Origin: Alphaproteobacteria bacterium
GTDB lineage: Bacteria > Pseudomonadota > Alphaproteobacteria > JANQMY01
Assembly (NCBI GenBank): GCA_028289425.1
Contig: JANQPL010000004.1
Coordinates: forward strand, 124,001 to 188,000
Direction of reading: 5' to 3'
DNA: 64,000 nt
Translations under genes and position numbers: made by a program
The notes under the pieces: model-generated
The model's input: the letters and a program-made list of their open reading frames with translations, nothing else
Told to the model about the DNA's origin: nothing
The model's database searches: none
In this document: positions 2,642-10,527 of the stretch, in pieces
Layout: each line of letters starts with the position of its first letter
How positions within the stretch are numbered: position 1 is the first letter of the stretch

Positions 2642-3009
2642 TATCGTACCTGCTTAGCCGTCCCACTCCCCCTTCCCAACCGCCCCTAGGGTACCATCGC
2701 GGGTGGTTGGGAAGGGGGAGTGGGACGGCCAGGCCCAAATCCAAAAAGCCATGCACCAATGGCGCCCGTGGGCGAATCCTCGCTGACGGACGTTGACCCC
2801 GGCCCCCCCAATGCGAACATTGCCGAGCCGCGAGCGGATACATGACACTCCTAACCTGAAGTGGGCGGAACCTACTGCCCGTGTCGACTAAGGTCAAGCG
2901 CAGATCCGCAGACAACCAATTGTGCCGGCCTCAAGCTTACGTTGTTTTAATCAACCTAGGGTATCACCTACCCGGTCGCCTTTTTCGCGAATCCGCTGGA
3001 GTCCCTCAA
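2642..3009. other. intergenic region between divergent ffh and lipoprotein genes
   Basis: 368 bp without a supported gene. It holds the hairpin repeat at 2657-2729 and must contain the promoters of the ffh block (minus) and of the lipoprotein gene (plus). I could not pick a convincing -35/-10 pair for either. Confidence 0.6.
2657..2729. repeat. GC-rich dispersed hairpin repeat, copy 1
   Basis: Perfect 25-bp inverted repeat (arms 2657-2681 and 2705-2729) around a 23-bp centre that includes GGTACC. The arm core CTCCCCCTTCCCAACC and central GGTACC are shared with the second copy at 7815-7879. Both are followed on the right by CGGCC and, 20-30 bp on, by CCATGCACC. This marks a dispersed REP/MITE-like element rather than a terminator. 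It sits directly upstream of the ffh ribosome site. Confidence 0.85.
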
Positions 3010-3612
3010 ATGTCAAAATTCATTCTGTGTTTGCTTGCCGTTGTTTCGGTGGGCCTAGTTTCTTGCGCAACGGCGCCGTCCAAACCCGTTCCCCCAAGTG
3101 TCCAGCGTACCCTCGCGATCAAGGGCGTCGACGTGCGCTTCGAGCCCGATTTCCGTCTGCCCAGCATGGGCGTAAAGATGTTCTATTACGGGGAGTACCG
3201 GAAGCGGTATCCACAATTGGCGCAAAACGCTTCGGCCGACGGTTCCGGCCGCGGCAGACTTACCAAAGAATACATCGCGCTCACCCTGGGCAACGAGGTG
3301 GGGCGGCGCTTCACATCAGAACTCCGCGGACACCGACCAACAAAGATCGTTCTAACGGTGAGCGGCATCAGCCTATCCGGCCCCACTGCCACCATTCTTA
3401 TCGGACGCAATAATGCGGTCAAAGCGACCGCCGAATTCGTAGACCTAAAGACGGGCGCCCTGATCGGACGATATGAAGACATTTACGCCCAGGAAGGTGA
3501 TCAGGGTGGTCTGATCTCGGCCGCCGTCGAAGCTGCTTCCAAATATGGCCCTGCGGACGATGCGGCCCATGCCTTTTCGAACGTGCTGTGGAACAGGTTC
3601 TACAGATCTTGA
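3010..3612 (+). CDS. predicted lipoprotein of unknown function
   Basis: 200 residues from the ATG at 3010. The N-terminus has a basic/hydrophobic signal sequence ending in the lipobox VSCA with Cys19, so the protein should be lipidated and anchored in the envelope. The open frame extends upstream to 2881, but that part lacks signal-peptide character. The mature part is basic, mixed alpha/beta in appearance, with a stretch LTKEYIALTLGNEVGRRFTS and a later hydrophobic KIVLTVSGISL segment resembling DUF4410/LPP-type small lipoproteins. I do not recognise the exact family. It stands alone between ffh (divergent) and a convergent methyltransferase. Confidence 0.75.
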   Translation: MSKFILCLLAVVSVGLVSCATAPSKPVPPSVQRTLAIKGVDVRFEPDFRLPSMGVKMFYYGEYRKRYPQLAQNASADGSGRGRLTKEYIALTLGNEVGRRFTSELRGHRPTKIVLTVSGISLSGPTATILIGRNNAVKATAEFVDLKTGALIGRYEDIYAQEGDQGGLISAAVEAASKYGPADDAAHAFSNVLWNRFYRS

Positions 3613-3655
3613 CGAGACAATAGGATCGCCCGCGGCCCCGCTAGACTGGGCGGAC

Positions 3656-3670
3656 TAGAATAGAATTCTA
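3656..3670. repeat. TAGAA-N5-TTCTA palindrome, copy 2
   Basis: Exact TAGAA TAGAA TTCTA. On the minus strand the first three bases are the TAG stop codon of the methyltransferase gene (3668-3670). It lies in the gap between two convergent genes. Confidence 0.5.
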
Positions 3671-4537
3671 CGCAGGCCGTAGGAACGCCCAGAAATTGTC
3701 GTTCGTCGGCAAGTTGGCGAGCCTTGGAAACCGGGTCGTCAATCCCGCACTCGCCGCCATTTTTTCAAGGCTGCCCTCGGTAAAGTAATTGACGTGGTCC
3801 GGCAGCCTGATCCCGCACCAAGACGAGCGCATGACTTTTGCGTTGAGCGATCCGAAATTCGGCACTTTGACAACGGCGATACCGCTGGGCTTGAGCACCC
3901 GCCGCACCTGGTGCAGCACATCCAGCGGTTGGATTTCATGCTCCAGATAGGAATTCAGCATGGCGCCGTCGAACATGCCGTCCTCAAACTGCTTAAGACC
4001 TTCGGTCGAGGGGGCATGCACGCAATGACCGCCCTTTGACCGGAACAATGCGTCGGCCTGTGCCGCCAGCCCCTTAGACACTTCGACACCGAAGGGGGTC
4101 GTCATTTCCGGCAACCGCAGCACATGCCCCCCGCTGCCGCAGCCCACATCGATCACATTGCCGGCCGGAACGAACTTTGACAGGAACAGCTCTGTTTCCG
4201 GCCGCGGAAAGATGTGGAGCCGCCATCTTGTTTTTTCATCGATCCAGCTGAAGACCGGGCGCTTCTTCTTTCGCCGTTTTGCCTCCACGGCAAAGGATTT
4301 TTCCCAGGCATGATCCTCGGAAAGATCTTCATAGGGCAGCGCTTCGGTGAGGTAAGCGAATCCGCAGGCGCGGCACGCACCAATGGTCCAGTCCGCGTTG
4401 CCCAAGCCTAAATCGTCATAATCGGCCCCGTTACATTGGGGACAGTTTCTGGGGATTTTTGTCTTCCCGCTTGCCAAGGCAATCTCCCGCGCCGCCCGCC
4501 GGCGACTATCCCCCAACGCCCCAAGACCGTCAATCAA
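3668..4537 (-). CDS. class I SAM methyltransferase with N-terminal zinc ribbon
   Basis: 289 residues. Four cysteines in two pairs (C32-x2-C35 and C55-x2-C58) form a probable zinc ribbon. The SAM-binding motif I is VIDVGCGSGG at 128-137, followed by a Methyltransf_23-like core with GAMLNSYLEHEIQPLDVLHQ and an H-V-N-Y-F-T motif (DHVNYFTEGSLEKM) typical of this group. Such zinc-ribbon methyltransferases often act in polysaccharide or natural-product modification; the substrate here cannot be read from sequence or neighbours, as no sugar gene is nearby. It ends on the TAGAA palindrome at 3656-3670. Confidence 0.85.
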   Translation of the reverse strand: MIDGLGALGDSRRRAAREIALASGKTKIPRNCPQCNGADYDDLGLGNADWTIGACRACGFAYLTEALPYEDLSEDHAWEKSFAVEAKRRKKKRPVFSWIDEKTRWRLHIFPRPETELFLSKFVPAGNVIDVGCGSGGHVLRLPEMTTPFGVEVSKGLAAQADALFRSKGGHCVHAPSTEGLKQFEDGMFDGAMLNSYLEHEIQPLDVLHQVRRVLKPSGIAVVKVPNFGSLNAKVMRSSWCGIRLPDHVNYFTEGSLEKMAASAGLTTRFPRLANLPTNDNFWAFLRPA

Positions 4538-4589
4538 GGGGTGCCCAGCTGCACGGCGAAGAAACGACAGCGGTGGCGCGCCAGTGTCC

Positions 4590-4644
4590 CGAATCCGAAG
4601 TTCGTTTCACTGTTGCAGCAAGCGCCGGACGAACTTCGGATTCG
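4590..4644. repeat. 16-bp perfect inverted repeat
   Basis: Arms CGAATCCGAAGTTCGT (4590-4605) and its exact complement (4629-4644) flank a 23-base loop. It lies in the 196-bp gap between the divergent methyltransferase and membrane-protein genes. It has no T-run on either side, so a terminator is unlikely. It could be an operator, a structured 5' leader, or a dispersed repeat; no second copy is visible in the window. Confidence 0.7.
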
Positions 4645-4733
4645 TAAGGACGCTAGCGCACATGTGAGGTGCGCCTACGCACCGGCTGAGATAGACTGCT
4701 GCCAGAACAAAATTCGACTGGGTGGGAAATCTC

Positions 4734-5246
4734 ATGACGCAAAAGTATTTGTGGGGCGCGGCGACCGTGTTGATCGCAACGGCGGCCGCCCTATCGGGGG
4801 CCGGCGCCGAAGAATACGGCAAGGGAAATGGGGCGCTTGAATATTTCGACGCCGAAGGCATCGCCGCATCCCCTCAATGGGTGCAGATCTGGATCTTTGT
4901 CATGCTGGGCACCTTCGCTTTGGGCCTTGTCTTCGTCTGGTGGCGCCCGATCGCCCGTTGGGCCGTGGGCGGCATTCTGGCCAGCCTGTTCTTGGGCGAA
5001 ATCCCCTTTGCCGCGTTGGATCTGCCTTATCTGTCGGGTGCGATTGCCATCGCCCATCTGGTCTGCTGGTCACCCGCGCTCTATTTGCTGCTGACCCGGC
5101 GCCCCTTCCTGCAGGCGGGTGAGGCCGTCGGGTACCGTGTGTGGACCGCCGCGATGACCGGGGTCATCTTGTTTTCGTTCGTCTTTGATTTGCGGGACGC
5201 AGCCATCTACATCGATCACTTCTCAGGACTGGGGCTCATGTCCTAG
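4734..5246 (+). CDS. small multi-pass membrane protein, unknown function
   Basis: 170 residues from the ATG at 4734, preceded by GGTGGGA at a good distance; an in-frame GTG at 4722 lies inside that ribosome site and is less likely. An N-terminal hydrophobic segment (about 5-25, ending AGAEE) looks like a signal peptide. About four further membrane segments follow, near residues 48-67 (IWIFVMLGTFALGLVFVWW), 75-95, 98-117 and 132-152. I do not recognise the family. The gene stands alone, divergent from the methyltransferase gene. Confidence 0.7.
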   Translation: MTQKYLWGAATVLIATAAALSGAGAEEYGKGNGALEYFDAEGIAASPQWVQIWIFVMLGTFALGLVFVWWRPIARWAVGGILASLFLGEIPFAALDLPYLSGAIAIAHLVCWSPALYLLLTRRPFLQAGEAVGYRVWTAAMTGVILFSFVFDLRDAAIYIDHFSGLGLMS

Positions 5247-5259
5247 AACGGTCATTCTG
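5244..5259. repeat. near-match to the TAGAA/TTCTA gene-end palindrome
   Basis: TAGAA CGGTCA TTCTG, spacer six instead of five and one arm change. The TAG is the stop codon of the membrane-protein gene, as in the other copies. Confidence 0.3.
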
Positions 5260-5398
5260 TAACAGAAATATGACGAACGCTCTTCTAGTATGAGGGATTT
5301 GTGACAGTCCGGCTGGGGGCCGTCATAAAACTTTTTTCGGTCCCCCCTCCATTCTCAGATCTTTTGCAGAACGGTCGGAGGGGACGGTTGTCGACCCG

Positions 5399-6301
5399 CT
5401 ACTGGCCTGCCGGGAACCTCGTCTCGATCAAGGCAACGCCGCGACCACGAATGGTTTCTGCCCAGGGTGCGAAATCCGCGGTTCTGACCGCACGGACGCG
5501 GCCTTCGCCCATCGTTTCGAATTCGAACCGTGCGCCTTCATAGTCCAGCGCCGCGCGTCCTTGGCCAATCGGAACCGACACCTTGTCGGCGTTTCCCGTC
5601 TCCAATCGGCTTTGAAATTGGGGGAACGTCACAAGCTCTTCCCGGATGACCACCCAGTCGAGAATGGGCGCGGACACAACAATCTCTGTATCGTTGACCG
5701 CCTCAATCACCAGAACGCGTTTCCAGGCCACCTCTTCCGACAGGCCGGCATCTTCATAGGCCGCAGCCGGCATTTGAACCGGAATGTCGAACAGAGGTGC
5801 CGACTTCTTCGCCTTGTAGCGCACCATGTCCATGCGGCCATCTTTGTCCGAATCGACAATGCAGTAGAAGCCGGCCGGAACGCCATGGGGATTGTTGCGA
5901 TGATCGCTCCGGCAGTAGCTGCCCCGATAGGTGTTGCCGTAAAGATCGAATGTGGTTCCAACCGCCCATGTGCCCTGTTTCTTGGCGGTGTTCTGGAGGG
6001 GCTCCGTCAGGCGGATGGTTTTCTTGCGCAAACGCAACTCTTCGGCATAAAGCACGTCGCCGGCCGCCAGGGTGCGGGCAACATTCGGCGCGGCCGAGGC
6101 CACCGTCCGCACGCCGTCCAGATACCAATCGGGGTAAAGGCCCCGTTGCTGCCCTTTATAGACCGCCTCGAAAGGCCCCGCGCGCATGACTTCTTTGGCA
6201 CCCGGGAACCCCCGAACGTCTTTGGCGACGACGGAAGTACTTCCCAAGGCTCCAAACGTTGACAAACCCACGCACAGATAAGCAACCAAACCCAAACGCA
6301 T
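5399..6301 (-). CDS. predicted exported protein, unknown function
   Basis: 300 residues from the ATG at 6301, which has GAGGAG ten bases upstream; the open frame also runs to a GTG at 6319, which would overlap that site. Residues 1-28 form a signal peptide (hydrophobic, then AKDVRG). The mature chain is mostly beta-rich, with four or five short motifs such as GTTFDLYGNTYRGSYCRSD and an Asp-rich DSDKDGRMDMVRY stretch that resembles a calcium-binding loop (DxDxDG). Two cysteines in the centre could form a disulfide. No family is recognised and the neighbours are unrelated. Confidence 0.7.
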   Translation of the reverse strand: MRLGLVAYLCVGLSTFGALGSTSVVAKDVRGFPGAKEVMRAGPFEAVYKGQQRGLYPDWYLDGVRTVASAAPNVARTLAAGDVLYAEELRLRKKTIRLTEPLQNTAKKQGTWAVGTTFDLYGNTYRGSYCRSDHRNNPHGVPAGFYCIVDSDKDGRMDMVRYKAKKSAPLFDIPVQMPAAAYEDAGLSEEVAWKRVLVIEAVNDTEIVVSAPILDWVVIREELVTFPQFQSRLETGNADKVSVPIGQGRAALDYEGARFEFETMGEGRVRAVRTADFAPWAETIRGRGVALIETRFPAGQ

Positions 6302-6669
6302 CGCCACGCAACTCCTCACTGTTTATGCGCGGGAGTATGGCCAAGGGGTCCTTAAGATTTCGCTTTCCCCGCTTTGGTTTGCCGGCCGGCATGCGTGGCC
6401 GGCGCCAAAAAATTGGCGGATTGAACGTTGTTCCAGCGCGCGGGCCGGTGCGGGCGCCCCTTCGGTCGCCACTGGACGAGTGGCGTTGCCCATGGCGAGA
6501 GGACCGGCCGGCTCTTAAAACGCGTCGGACAAGCTTTCTCCGTTGCCGTCGAGTTCGCGTGTGGGAAACAACGGGGGAGAACGTTCGGCCTTATGATAGA
6601 TGAACAGCTATTCGGGCCGTCCGCAAAACAATCACTAGTAGACCGATTGCCTTATTCCCATTGTGAAGG

Positions 6670-6807
6670 ATGGAGCCCAAGAAACTGCGTGCCAAAGTTC
6701 AGCTCAAGACAGGACGGACCAAATGGTGGTGGCACGGTGACACGCCCATCGAAAAAGACGCTTGCCCCGCCGAACCCGAACAAAATCCCCAAGAAACCCA
6801 TGGATAG
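6670..6807 (+). CDS. possible 45-residue small protein
   Basis: ATG at 6670 to TAG at 6807. The product is basic at the start (MEPKKLRAKVQLKTGRTKWW), has three tryptophans in a row followed by HGDTP, and an acidic, proline-rich end with one Cys. An in-frame stop lies just six bases upstream of the ATG. AAGG overlaps the start too closely to be a normal ribosome site, so translation is doubtful. Listed only because the composition is protein-like. Confidence 0.2.
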   Translation: MEPKKLRAKVQLKTGRTKWWWHGDTPIEKDACPAEPEQNPQETHG

Positions 6808-6825
6808 AAACAGTGTTACCTATTG

Positions 6826-6845
6826 TCACATATGTGAGGTATGCT
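6826..6845 (+). promoter_or_regulatory. palindrome and possible -10 box at the TetR gene start
   Basis: TCACATATGTGA (6826-6837) is a perfect 12-bp palindrome, with TATGCT (6840-6845) just after it as a possible -10 box. TTACCT 18 bp further up could be a weak -35. Transcription would then begin only a few bases before the ATG at 6858, giving a leaderless or nearly leaderless message. The palindrome is well placed for autorepression by the TetR protein. All of this is inferred from position. Confidence 0.4.
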
Positions 6846-6857
6846 ATCACTGGATGC

Positions 6858-7475
6858 ATGAACAGCGACCCTGGTTACGATCTGAAGGCCGAGCGCCAGG
6901 CAGCACATGCCCGCCTGCGCCAGGCGATCTTGGATGCCGCAACGCGCCTTTTGGTAGAAAGCGGACCGGACGGTCTGTCGGTGCGAAACCTGGCCACAGC
7001 AGTGGGGGCGTCGACCAAGGTGGTGTACAGCCATTTCGGCGGCATGCAGGGTGTGGTTTCGGCCGTTTATGGAGAGGGATTCCAGAGACTGACCCAAGCG
7101 CTGGAGGCATCCGACGACATCAATCAACCGCCGCCGGTCAGATTGGCTTCCATTGCAGCCGCCTATCGCCGGTTTGCCCTGACCTATCCGGATTTGTTTG
7201 ATCTTATGTACGGGCCAAATGCGAAATGGCTGGCGCCGTCGAGCGACGACCGCCTGCCGGCAGCGCCGTCCTTGGACATTGTGACAAAAGTCATTCTGAC
7301 CGGGCAAGTCACCCACCATTTCAAACCAGGCGATGCGGTCGAATTGGCCCATCAGTTTTGGGCGACCATGCATGGGCCGGTTGCTCTAGAAGCGACCCTT
7401 TGGCTCGACCGAACACCCGAGAAAACATTTGGACAGGTTGTGGAAGGGGCAATTACGGCGCTGACCCTCGAATAG
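6858..7475 (+). CDS. TetR/AcrR family transcriptional regulator, WHG-type C-terminus
   Basis: 205 residues from the ATG at 6858. The helix-turn-helix lies at about residues 20-66 (ILDAATRLLVESGPDGLSVR, then VGASTKVVYSHFGGM). The C-terminal part has the AYRRFALTYPDLFDLMYG and FWATMHGPVALE motifs of the WHG ligand-binding domain. The open frame extends to 6762, but that part is not TetR-like and contains the palindrome described above. No ribosome site is evident. Nearest plus-strand neighbour is the YbbP-like permease 500 bp on; a regulatory link to it is only a guess. The gene ends in a near copy of the TAGAA palindrome. Confidence 0.85.
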   Translation: MNSDPGYDLKAERQAAHARLRQAILDAATRLLVESGPDGLSVRNLATAVGASTKVVYSHFGGMQGVVSAVYGEGFQRLTQALEASDDINQPPPVRLASIAAAYRRFALTYPDLFDLMYGPNAKWLAPSSDDRLPAAPSLDIVTKVILTGQVTHHFKPGDAVELAHQFWATMHGPVALEATLWLDRTPEKTFGQVVEGAITALTLE

Positions 7476-7487
7476 AACATTGTTCTG
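7473..7487. repeat. TAGAA-N5-TTCTG, one-base variant of the gene-end palindrome
   Basis: TAGAA CATTG TTCTG, where TAG is the TetR gene stop codon. The inner AGAAC-ATT-GTTCT is a perfect 13-base palindrome. Confidence 0.4.
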
Positions 7488-7777
7488 CCATGCCTGGGGA
7501 TCGCCGTCTTGTTCTCAATTGGCTTCTCTTCCGCGACAATATTGGTTAAACTTATTGAAGCCCAGTTTGTGAATGGGAACAGGCATTTATGCACTTGATC
7601 CAGCGCCAAAACCCCATAGATCTGACCAATGCCCTTGCCGGCAACCTTCCCGCCGTCCCTGTCGAGCGCTTTGCCTTGCCGTTCATATCCAGCCAATTGC
7701 CGATTAACACGCCCGCGACGCGAGGTCGTGTCGGCAAAGCATTTGCGATGGGCCTAAGCGCCACGGGTGAAACGGGG

Positions 7778-7919
7778 ATGAACCCCATGCACCCATCTTC
7801 TGAAGGCATCGCCAGCCCTCTCCCCCTTCCCAACCACCCCAACGGTACCCTGGCGGGTGGTTGGGAAGGGGGAGAGGGCGGCCGGGTAATCAAACATCGC
7901 ATGAACCCCATGCACCCAT
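7778..7919. repeat. 19-bp direct repeats flanking the hairpin repeat
   Basis: ATGAACCCCATGCACCCAT occurs exactly at 7778-7796 and 7901-7919, 123 bp apart, on either side of the hairpin. A related CCATGCACC follows copy 1 at 2749. The block may be two tandem repeat units of which one has lost its hairpin. Confidence 0.75.
7815..7879. repeat. GC-rich dispersed hairpin repeat, copy 2
   Basis: 25-bp perfect inverted repeat (7815-7839 and 7855-7879) with a 15-base loop containing GGTACC. Shares the arm core CTCCCCCTTCCCAACC with copy 1 at 2657-2729. Confidence 0.85.
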
Positions 7920-7977
7920 TGTCTTTTGGGCTAAGCCATCCTATGCCGCCCTCTCGACAGGTTGAGCCGGAGGGCAA

Positions 7978-10527
7978 ATGCCGCAACATCTAGCCCTTGC
8001 TGCAAGATTTGCGAGCCGCGAGTTGCGCGGCGGTCTGGCGGGATTCCGTATTTTCCTGGCCTGCCTCACACTGGGCGTGGCCGCGATTGCAGGGGTCGGT
8101 TCCATGAGCGCCGCCTTCTTGAAGGGCCTTGCCGAAGAAGGCCGCATTATCTTAGGGGGCGATCTTGATCTAAGGCTGACGCATCGGGCGGCCACCCCGG
8201 ACGAGGCGGCCTGGCTTGGGGCCAACGCCGCCGCCGTTTCCGAAGTGGCGGAAATGCGCGCCATGACGCGGGGAGCATACGCTGCGTCCGACACGCGCAC
8301 ATTGGTGGAATTGAAGGCAGTCGATGCCGCATACCCTTTGCAAGGGACCGTCGACCTGGCGCCCGCCCAACCTTTATCTCAAGCGCTGCGCCATTCCGAC
8401 GGCGTTTGGGGCGCGGTGGTGGAGCCCAACCTGCTCACCCGCCTTAACGTGGCGGTGGGCGACAGGCTCAAGCTGGGCAATACGGAAGTGGTCGTTCGCG
8501 CCGTGATCGAGGACGAGCCGGACCGCTTGGCCGGGGGTATGGCAATCGGTCCACGACTGATGATCGCCCGTGCGGCGCTCGACGAAACCGGTTTGTTCAC
8601 CGTGGGCAGTCTGATCCGCTTCCATTATCGCGTGTTGCTGCATCCGGACGGTGTGCCTGACGAGGCGCTCACGACGTGGAAAGATAACCTGGAAACAGCG
8701 TTACCGGATGCCGGCTGGCGGGTGCAGGACAGAACCAACGGAGCCCCGGGGGTTCGGCGTTTTGTGGTGCAGGTAACACTGTTTCTGACACTGGTCGGCC
8801 TGACGGCTTTGGTGGTGGGCGGCGTCGGTGTGGGCAACGGCGTGAAGAGCTATCTGGACACGAAGCGGCGCGTGATCGCCACGTTCAAATGTCTGGGCGC
8901 ACCGGGCAGCCTGATCTTCTCTACCTATTTGTTGCAGGTATTGGCGATCGCCGTGGTAGGAATTTTGCTGGGCCTGATTGTCGGTGCCGTCACGCCGTTC
9001 CTCGTCAACACCTTCTTCGGCCACCTGTTTCCTGTCCCGGCGCGCACCGAGATCTATGGGATGCCCCTGGTTCTGGCGACCGTTTTCGGCCTGCTGGCGG
9101 CACTGGCCTTCACGATCTGGCCGCTGGCCCGGGCGCGGGAAATTCCGGCGACCGGTCTGTTTCGGGATATTGTAGCGCCCACACGGCGCTATCCGCGGCT
9201 GCCTTATGGCATTGGCCTGGTTGTCACTTTCGCCCTGTTGACGGTGATTGCTGTGGCCACATCCGCCTATCCGGGATTTGCGGCCTGGTTTGTGGTCGGC
9301 GCGGCCGCCACATTTGCGTTGCTGCTGGCCACCGGATGGGGGGTGATGCGCCTGGCCACCCGTTTACCGCCGGCACGCCATCCGGGGCTGCGCCAGGCGG
9401 TTGCCAATTTGCACCGGCCCGGCGCGCCCACCATCAGCGTCGTGCTGTCCATGGGGCTGGGACTGACCCTACTTGTCACCATCACCCAGATCGACGGCAA
9501 TGTGCAGCGACAAGTGTCGAACGAAATTCCAGAAAAGGCGCCATCGTTCTTCTTTGTCGATATTCAGCGCGACCAATCGGACCCGTTCGAAACCATCGTG
9601 CGCGGCCATGACGGCGTGAGCCAATTTGAAAAAGTGCCGGCCCTGCGCGGGCAGATTAAACTGCTGAACGGGAAGCCCGCGGATCCGGAAGCGGTCTCGC
9701 CGGATGCCCGCTGGGCGTTGCGCGGCGACCGGGGGGTGAGCTATTCGGCAGAACCGCCCAATGAAGGCTCGGAAATCGTGGAAGGCGATTGGTGGGCCGC
9801 CGATTATCAAGGGCCGCCGCTCATCTCGTTTGCCCGCGACCTGGCCCAGGGCATGGGCTTGGCGGTGGGCGACACCATGACCGTGCGGGTGTTGGGTCGG
9901 GACATAATGGGCACCATTGCCAATCTGCGGGACATCGACTTTTCCACCGCTGGGATCAACTTCACCATCATATTCTCGCCGGGGGCCTTTTCGGGCGCAC
10001 CGCACACCTTCTTGGCCACGGCCACCACCAGCCCAGACCAGGAAGAATCCCTTCAGCGCAAGGTGACCGACGCCTTTACCAACATCACCGTGGTGAGCAT
10101 TCGGGACGCCATCGAGGCGATTAACGGCATCCTCCAGAACCTTGTTCTAGCGGTGCGCGGCACCAGCCTGATTACCCTGGCGGCGGGCATATTGGTGTTG
10201 GCTGGCGCTATGGCCGCGGGCCATCGGCACCGGGTCTATGACGCGGTGGTGTTGAAAGTGCTGGGCGCCACCCGGCGGCGCATTCTGGAAGCCTATGTCA
10301 TAGAATATGCCATACTGGGACTGACCACGGCGGTGGTGGCCGGCGCCATCGGCACGCTGGCCGCCTATTTGGTGGTCACTCAGGTCATGGAGGGCAGCTG
10401 GACCTTCATGCCCGGCCTGATGCTGGGGACAGCGGCGCTGGCCACGCTTTTGACGATCCTATTGGGACTTGCCAGCACGTGGCAGGTGTTGAGCCAAAAA
10501 GTCTCGCCGATTTTGCGGTCGGAATGA
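7978..10527 (+). CDS. FtsX-like ABC transporter permease, YbbP type
   Basis: 849 residues with GGAGGG before the ATG. N-terminal membrane helix (FRIFLACLTLGVAAIAGVGS), a large periplasmic MacB-like region, then two sets of FtsX-type membrane helices near residues 265-400 and 715-840 (VYDAVVLKVLGATRRRILEA is the typical coupling motif). This is the YbbP family, whose E. coli member pairs with the ATPase YbbA beside the esterase TesA. No ATPase or esterase gene lies next to it here; the upstream space is occupied by dispersed repeats. It may use an ATPase encoded elsewhere, or the pair may have been split by rearrangement. Confidence 0.85.
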   Translation: MPQHLALAARFASRELRGGLAGFRIFLACLTLGVAAIAGVGSMSAAFLKGLAEEGRIILGGDLDLRLTHRAATPDEAAWLGANAAAVSEVAEMRAMTRGAYAASDTRTLVELKAVDAAYPLQGTVDLAPAQPLSQALRHSDGVWGAVVEPNLLTRLNVAVGDRLKLGNTEVVVRAVIEDEPDRLAGGMAIGPRLMIARAALDETGLFTVGSLIRFHYRVLLHPDGVPDEALTTWKDNLETALPDAGWRVQDRTNGAPGVRRFVVQVTLFLTLVGLTALVVGGVGVGNGVKSYLDTKRRVIATFKCLGAPGSLIFSTYLLQVLAIAVVGILLGLIVGAVTPFLVNTFFGHLFPVPARTEIYGMPLVLATVFGLLAALAFTIWPLARAREIPATGLFRDIVAPTRRYPRLPYGIGLVVTFALLTVIAVATSAYPGFAAWFVVGAAATFALLLATGWGVMRLATRLPPARHPGLRQAVANLHRPGAPTISVVLSMGLGLTLLVTITQIDGNVQRQVSNEIPEKAPSFFFVDIQRDQSDPFETIVRGHDGVSQFEKVPALRGQIKLLNGKPADPEAVSPDARWALRGDRGVSYSAEPPNEGSEIVEGDWWAADYQGPPLISFARDLAQGMGLAVGDTMTVRVLGRDIMGTIANLRDIDFSTAGINFTIIFSPGAFSGAPHTFLATATTSPDQEESLQRKVTDAFTNITVVSIRDAIEAINGILQNLVLAVRGTSLITLAAGILVLAGAMAAGHRHRVYDAVVLKVLGATRRRILEAYVIEYAILGLTTAVVAGAIGTLAAYLVVTQVMEGSWTFMPGLMLGTAALATLLTILLGLASTWQVLSQKVSPILRSE

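Follow-up and report, generated by a model that had tools for sequence, protein, structure and literature searches.

The window analysed here is a stretch of 64,000 nucleotides from an alphaproteobacterial genome of 5.42 Mb (called G000 in the following); 90% of the window was called coding by our own simple codon-score script. It contains two GC-rich hairpins (Table 1): copy 1 lies in the 5' leader of ffh, and copy 2 is framed by two copies of a 20-bp direct repeat (DR), the gene for a permease-like membrane protein following 58 nt downstream of this DR-hairpin-DR unit. The original prediction, made from the window alone, had described both hairpins as perfect 25-bp stems with a common arm core and a central GGTACC, and both are present as claimed. 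Each contains a perfect run of 25 bp, continued in copy 1 by three more pairs beyond one mismatch; the copies have CTCCCCCTTCCCAACC and the central GGTACC in common and are 85% identical over 73 bp. The arm core was found five times in the window at up to three mismatches, compared to 0.77 expected matches and none of 100 shuffles reaching five. RNA folding of copies 1 and 2 yielded -74.2 and -69.6 kcal/mol (z scores of -8.3 and -7.8, respectively), energies as low as these being obtained in none of 200 shuffles. Both window hairpins are genuine and far exceed chance expectation.

Table 1. Positions of the hairpins, direct repeats and neighbouring features in the window.
Feature	Positions	Strand	Remarks
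ffh, signal recognition particle protein	1142-2641	minus	open reading frame; named from the original prediction, inspection of the protein and the ffh RNA motif; no family search
Hairpin copy 1, without DR, in ffh 5' leader	2657-2729		arms 2657-2685 and 2701-2729; GGTACC in the loop at 2690-2695
ffh leader RNA motif, Rfam RF01793	2755-2807	minus	57.4 bits (gathering score 35); on the 5' side of copy 1, read in ffh direction
DR, first	7778-7797	minus	20 bp, GATGGGTGCATGGGGTTCAT on the minus strand
Hairpin copy 2	7815-7879		arms 7815-7839 and 7855-7879; GGTACC at 7845-7850
DR, second	7901-7920	minus	AATGGGTGCATGGGGTTCAT; orientation as first DR
849-aa membrane protein, FtsX-type permease-like	7978-10527	plus	open reading frame; named by inspection only

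A spacing of 15 nt separates copy 1 from the ffh start codon (2641), so that one copy indeed lies just upstream of this gene, and it is located between the start codon and the ffh leader RNA, a motif described in PMC2704228. Both hairpins have orthologous counterparts in the sister species G001, the sole congener among the relatives drawn (copy 1 at L151:10860-10964, copy 2 at L151:7236-7339). As both species carry copy 1 ahead of ffh, it is tolerated there, and an influence on ffh is possible. The ffh leader RNA was the sole Rfam match in the window, with none at hairpin or DR. Among 20 further loci the gathering score was reached only by a thiamine pyrophosphate (TPP) riboswitch, and the hairpin matches remained below threshold and were mainly to microRNA models. 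This riboswitch (RF00059, L181:1261-1396) is found about 80 nt from a hairpin. The original prediction had also assigned the two copies shared flanks on account of a downstream word, CCATGCACC. The word occurs at both copies, but at copy 2 it is a piece of the DR present on both hairpin sides, whereas the occurrence at copy 1 (2749-2757) runs into the edge of the ffh RNA and is not a DR; therefore, there is no shared flank. In G001, the corresponding word at copy 1 is CATGCACC, which falls outside the DR dialect of that species, and both DRs of the orthologous copy 2 show the G001 form with CGC and TAGAT. The 3' edge of the ffh leader RNA (2744-2807, minus strand) carries a terminator-like hairpin followed by a T-run (2763-2748) just 5' of copy 1, a possible attenuator.

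To count the family, a covariance model of the hairpin was built on 26 copies and searched against both species, whereby 150 of 1725 first-look candidates were scored in G000 and 150 of 1615 in G001. The searches returned 149 strand matches in G000 and 131 in G001 (about 66 places). For G000 a catalogue of 78 hairpins of around 100 bases each was obtained, comprising 31 DR-hairpin-DR units, six hairpins with one DR and 41 without DR; the stems of six of the 78 are weak or interrupted. A model search of a contiguous 488-kb stretch of G000 revealed 11 intact and two weak or interrupted places, and all 11 intact ones were already contained in the genome-wide list. Exact arm cores number 28, at 17 places. 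The genome-wide core count and the catalogue thus confirm that the repeat is dispersed and has many additional members, but the hundreds per genome that had been anticipated were too high. At two loci (L015 and L041) the hairpin is broken by another palindrome, GCGTTTCC...GGAAACGC.

In a survey of 289 genomes of the class, in which 13 candidates were scored per genome under stricter filters, 16 genomes matched at E<=1e-8, namely both genomes of this genus and 14 from outside it. One locus was inspected in 13 of these 14 carriers: the C-rich arms are alike and the loops vary, some containing GTACCC or GTATCC and others neither, and at one of the loci (L278) the arms match only partly. No matches were found in viral contigs (searched with one pattern) or plasmids (searched with copy 2). 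The arm core was not found in print, and among the publications listed we recognised none describing the hairpin family.

The hairpins consist of a single GC-rich stem of mostly 24-35 bp with a AGGGTACCCT-like loop in G000. Stems were resolved in 72 of the 78 hairpins (arms of 17-44 bp); 23 of them are perfect, and 101 of 2059 cells are mismatched. The arms differ among loci yet largely agree within each locus, 97.4% of the cells being paired. With the structure taken from the same alignment on which it was scored, 40 cells were changed on both sides, compared to a mean of 13.7 in shuffled alignments and none of 500 shuffles reaching the observed count. Stem covariation is usually read as strong evidence for a functional RNA, and the strong covariation of the arms speaks for an explanation in which selection maintains the stem because it stabilises mRNA 3' ends or limits translation from a leader position, for example in front of ffh, where copy 1 is kept at the orthologous position in both species; the covariation would then reflect selection on the RNA. 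However, the stem mismatches on the assigned sense strand are not biased towards wobble pairs (20 G-U, 18 A-C and 38 others), and some of the loops flip. Relative to the DR, the loops of the 37 hairpins with DR were oriented one way in 11 cases and the other way in nine (17 unclassified).

The comparison of orthologous copies allowed these changes to be followed locus by locus. Out of 22 listed hairpin pairs, two (L216/L238 and L196/L264) were dropped since flank mapping identified them as non-orthologous. In the remaining 20 pairs, four loops are inverted and five direct, with eight unclear and three unreadable; of the window hairpins, copy 1 belongs to the unclear and copy 2 to the direct cases. 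The arms could be resolved in 13 of the 20 pairs, and among 51 positions 28 are unchanged, 11 differ in both arms while still pairing in each species, and 12 contain an unpaired state, indicating that arm repair is partial. The L158:7053 pair has near-identical flanks and a near-identical asymmetric outer stem in the two species, yet a single base has changed in either arm and the loop appears flipped, together with a few additional changes. Taken together, the lack of wobble bias, the occurrence of loops in both orientations and the L158:7053 pair point to the DNA level for the matching of the arms. Arm homogenisation and spacer inversion have been reported as marks of template switching in quasipalindromes (PMC8604942, PMC8794818), and both are suggested here as well; unlike in those reports, they are seen across a dispersed bacterial repeat family and its orthologous copies.

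The position of the hairpins relative to genes, as called by the codon-score script, was analysed for the 41 copies without DR. They occupy ten convergent, 25 co-directional and six divergent gaps, as compared to 14, 36 and 27, respectively, among 77 gaps with a minimum length of 60 nt in the seven stretches, out of 22, that had gene calls. A gene end was found -13 to +9 nt from the model end, i.e. within about 10 nt, on 32 of 45 3' sides versus seven of 37 5' sides, and within 20 nt on 32 of 45 versus 17 of 37. Hence, hairpins without DR mostly start just past stop codons, as REPs (repetitive extragenic palindromes) do. The DR-framed hairpins are placed otherwise, in gene leaders. CGTC and GTAG REPs are likewise palindromic, dispersed and extragenic, and are located near gene 3' ends in convergent and co-directional arrangements (PMC3733652); 35 of the 41 hairpins without DR are found beside genes so arranged. 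REPs in such places have been described as plausibly transcribed (PMC3733652), and together with the 3'-side count this is what selection of an RNA hairpin at mRNA ends would lead one to expect. Nevertheless, we consider the selected-RNA explanation doubtful in view of the absent wobble bias, the flipped loops and the hairpins missing in G000 at all three tested G001 sites described below. The GC-rich intergenic stems, ten of the 41 in convergent gaps, could also be taken for a family of intrinsic transcription terminators. This is very improbable, given that a run of four Ts within 12 nt after the stem was present in only two of 72 stems on one strand and in none of 72 on the other; consensus scans for terminators covered loops of 3-8 nt only and are hence uninformative for these hairpins.

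Despite their similar placement, the hairpins fall outside the tagged REP families. Tagged REPs are described as units of 20-40 bp with stems of 8-9 bp (CGTC families) and a tag at one end (PMC3733652), whereas here a single stem of mostly 24-35 bp was found and no tag was seen; a further difference is the frequent framing by the 20-bp DR in this genus. According to the same source, the CGTC families occur mostly in Alphaproteobacteria and are apparently without a dedicated transposase. The original prediction had pointed to a REP-associated tyrosine transposase (RAYT) as the agent of spread. The hairpins resemble the REPs of RAYT systems (PMC2817692) and REPINs (PMC3116915) in being non-autonomous and dispersed, and as palindromes in mostly 3'-proximal positions they could conceivably be REP elements mobilised by a RAYT; moreover, one of the two Y1_Tnp matches in G000 ends (open reading frame) about 360 bp from a hairpin with DR. 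However, this gene (L234:1189-1881, C19) is bordered by a different repeat of its own, GGTGACAGTGCACT, which has seven exact copies in the genome, three of them at this gene. Around the other Y1_Tnp match (L235), the 3.2-kb locus is free of DRs, and no Y1 gene bordered by the hairpin itself was found. In addition, neither a GTAG nor a CGTC tag was seen at the stem base in alignments of 17 and 26 rows (by inspection), the element is one long stem instead of 20-40-bp units, and single arms do not fold, as determined for one arm sequence and its partner. Spread by a RAYT is therefore unsupported, and we regard it as improbable.

Miniature inverted-repeat transposable elements (MITEs) offer a second comparison. 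The MITEs RU-1 to RU-3 are small and intergenic with lengths of about 100-170 bp (PMC2759123), and the hairpin element, being one inverted repeat, has the terminal inverted repeats typical of MITEs. Unlike for RU-1 to RU-3, no parent element was found in a search covering Y1_Tnp only, and the outer repeats are direct and not inverted. A MITE origin of the hairpin is no more than a possibility.

Presence and absence of the hairpin were compared between the two species. The syntenic stretch L153/L151 contains three hairpins, all of which are found in both species. Starting from G001, 30 listed loci correspond to 20 distinct places, of which seven have a hairpin at the G000 counterpart, seven are unmatched among the G000 hairpin loci and six are undecided. 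Three of the seven unmatched loci were tested, and in each case the hairpin is absent at the G000 site, where the model search gave no matches; one of these sites, the gap between leuB and asd (names by inspection), contains a different palindrome in the same spot. At 23 orthologous DR loci with adequate flanks, the hairpin is present in both species in 11 cases, only in G000 in nine and intact in neither in three. Weak hairpin remnants were detected in G001 at two of the nine loci.

Overall, we favour, with somewhat better than even confidence, the explanation that the hairpins are a family of non-autonomous extragenic palindromes, scattered among Alphaproteobacteria and similar to REPs or MITEs, whose arms are kept matched largely by template switching at the DNA level. 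According to this model, the hairpin would extrude during replication and the polymerase would jump to the other arm as template, whereby one arm is copied onto the other and the loop can flip. Arm complementarity would thus be maintained largely at the DNA level, and template switching between the arms could give well-matched stems without the need for RNA selection. An enzyme acting in trans would have spread the hairpin. In this genus, where the separate DR in gene leaders often frames it, the hairpin would be gained or lost between two DRs. Its main effect on the host would probably be passive, residing at the mRNA 3' end or in the leader and possibly slowing exonucleases or ribosomes.

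Several observations weigh against this model. The stem finder is biased towards well-paired stretches and the ortholog pairs were chosen non-randomly. Of the 23 changed arm positions, 12 are unpaired in at least one species, and therefore paired change is no commoner than unpaired change at orthologs. Both arms could likewise change together if one complete hairpin were exchanged for another copy, the detailed counter-case being L158:7053 alone. Selection for RNA hairpins just past stop codons would account for the observed placement equally well, and 17 of the 37 5' sides are likewise no more than 20 nt from a gene start. The flanks of the three hairpin-less G000 sites are too diverged to reveal a target duplication, so insertion is deduced from presence and absence, and no mobilising enzyme was found in a search covering Y1_Tnp only. 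Because the family provides many natural replicates with covarying arms, some flipped loops and no wobble strand bias, it can be used to test how much covariation arises from template switching alone.

The DR (GATGGGTGCATGGGGTTCAT) was analysed as an element in its own right. G000 contains 86 matches at up to three mismatches and none to the reversed control, and in all 31 DR-hairpin-DR units the two DRs are co-oriented. Among 39 genomes outside the genus, four had one match each and 35 none, and the DR is thus repeated only in this genus among the genomes searched. Seven exact matches in Chloroflexi (Anaerolineae) all lie in one conserved, coding-like stretch and were rejected as unrelated. 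When read in gene sense, the DR precedes a co-directional gene in 34 of the 46 cases that could be assigned, in 11 of these 34 at 39-64 nt before the start codon, and a GGGG word is present within 42 nt 5' of the DR at 34 of 45 places in G000 and 27 of 32 in G001. A stem formed by GATG/CATC pairing within the DR was ruled out, as the G001 dialect has GATC there.

The two species differ in the spelling of the DR. Position 7 is T in 72 and C in 14 of the 86 G000 matches; in G001 it is C in 41 of 41, and 33 of these 41 contain TAGAT, the count of 41 being a lower bound given that the G001 dialect is three mismatches off the search pattern. The 23 orthologous DR loci are a non-random sample, the G001 loci having been picked for carrying the DR, and leave out L181:3820, L190, L206, L207, L217:1077 and L233, which are anchored only by short repeat-spanning matches and were dropped by eye. 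At all 23 the orientation relative to the flanking genes is kept, mostly with a different species dialect. Rewriting is incomplete, as the G000 DRs at L199 and L211:14815 also have C, and at the flank-anchored locus L186 no DR was found within 600 nt in G001. For the dialect to shift at orthologous sites, either the copies must have converted one another or a recogniser must have co-evolved with them. REPs and RAYTs have been reported to co-evolve (PMC2817692), which is one possible parallel.

Kept orientation and species dialect at the orthologous loci, the reading direction towards co-directional genes and the co-oriented DRs of all units raise the question of whether the DR is the real unit, a genus-only leader repeat that is recognised by a trans-acting factor or kept uniform by gene conversion, and that gained hairpins by insertion or lost them by deletion. 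Compatible as it is with the favoured explanation, we rate this as rather unlikely. The hairpin family does not depend on the DR, since 41 of the 78 hairpins lack one and hairpins are present in genomes that do not have the DR as a repeat. Furthermore, no trans-acting factor was identified, and the genes downstream of the DR look like mixed housekeeping genes (by inspection), for which reason the DR was rejected as a mark of a regulon. Returning to the favoured palindrome family, we tentatively propose, as a possibility well short of an even chance, that it forms part of a dispersed two-part element in this genus: a 20-bp leader repeat that is fixed in place and orientation at many loci while gene conversion, or co-evolution with a trans-acting factor, rewrites it genome-wide into the dialect of the species, plus a self-repairing hairpin gained or lost between its copies. 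The dialect difference at orthologous sites provides a direct system to study the genome-wide rewriting of a dispersed repeat in a bacterium.

Related leaders were also noticed upstream of the DR. One group (L155, L193, L205-L208 and others) contains CGCTGTTTGACATGTGAATA-like words, which we take to resemble rrn boxA, and these leaders are possibly small RNA genes under antitermination. A second group (L181, L185, L203, L215, L217 and L231) has several members in which GGGAGG-like words are followed by a terminator-like hairpin, and is perhaps a multi-copy small RNA. At L226, L233, L184 and L058, palindromes resembling CGTC REPs (GTCATCCCAAG...CTTGGGATCCAT and similar) are located beside or between DRs.

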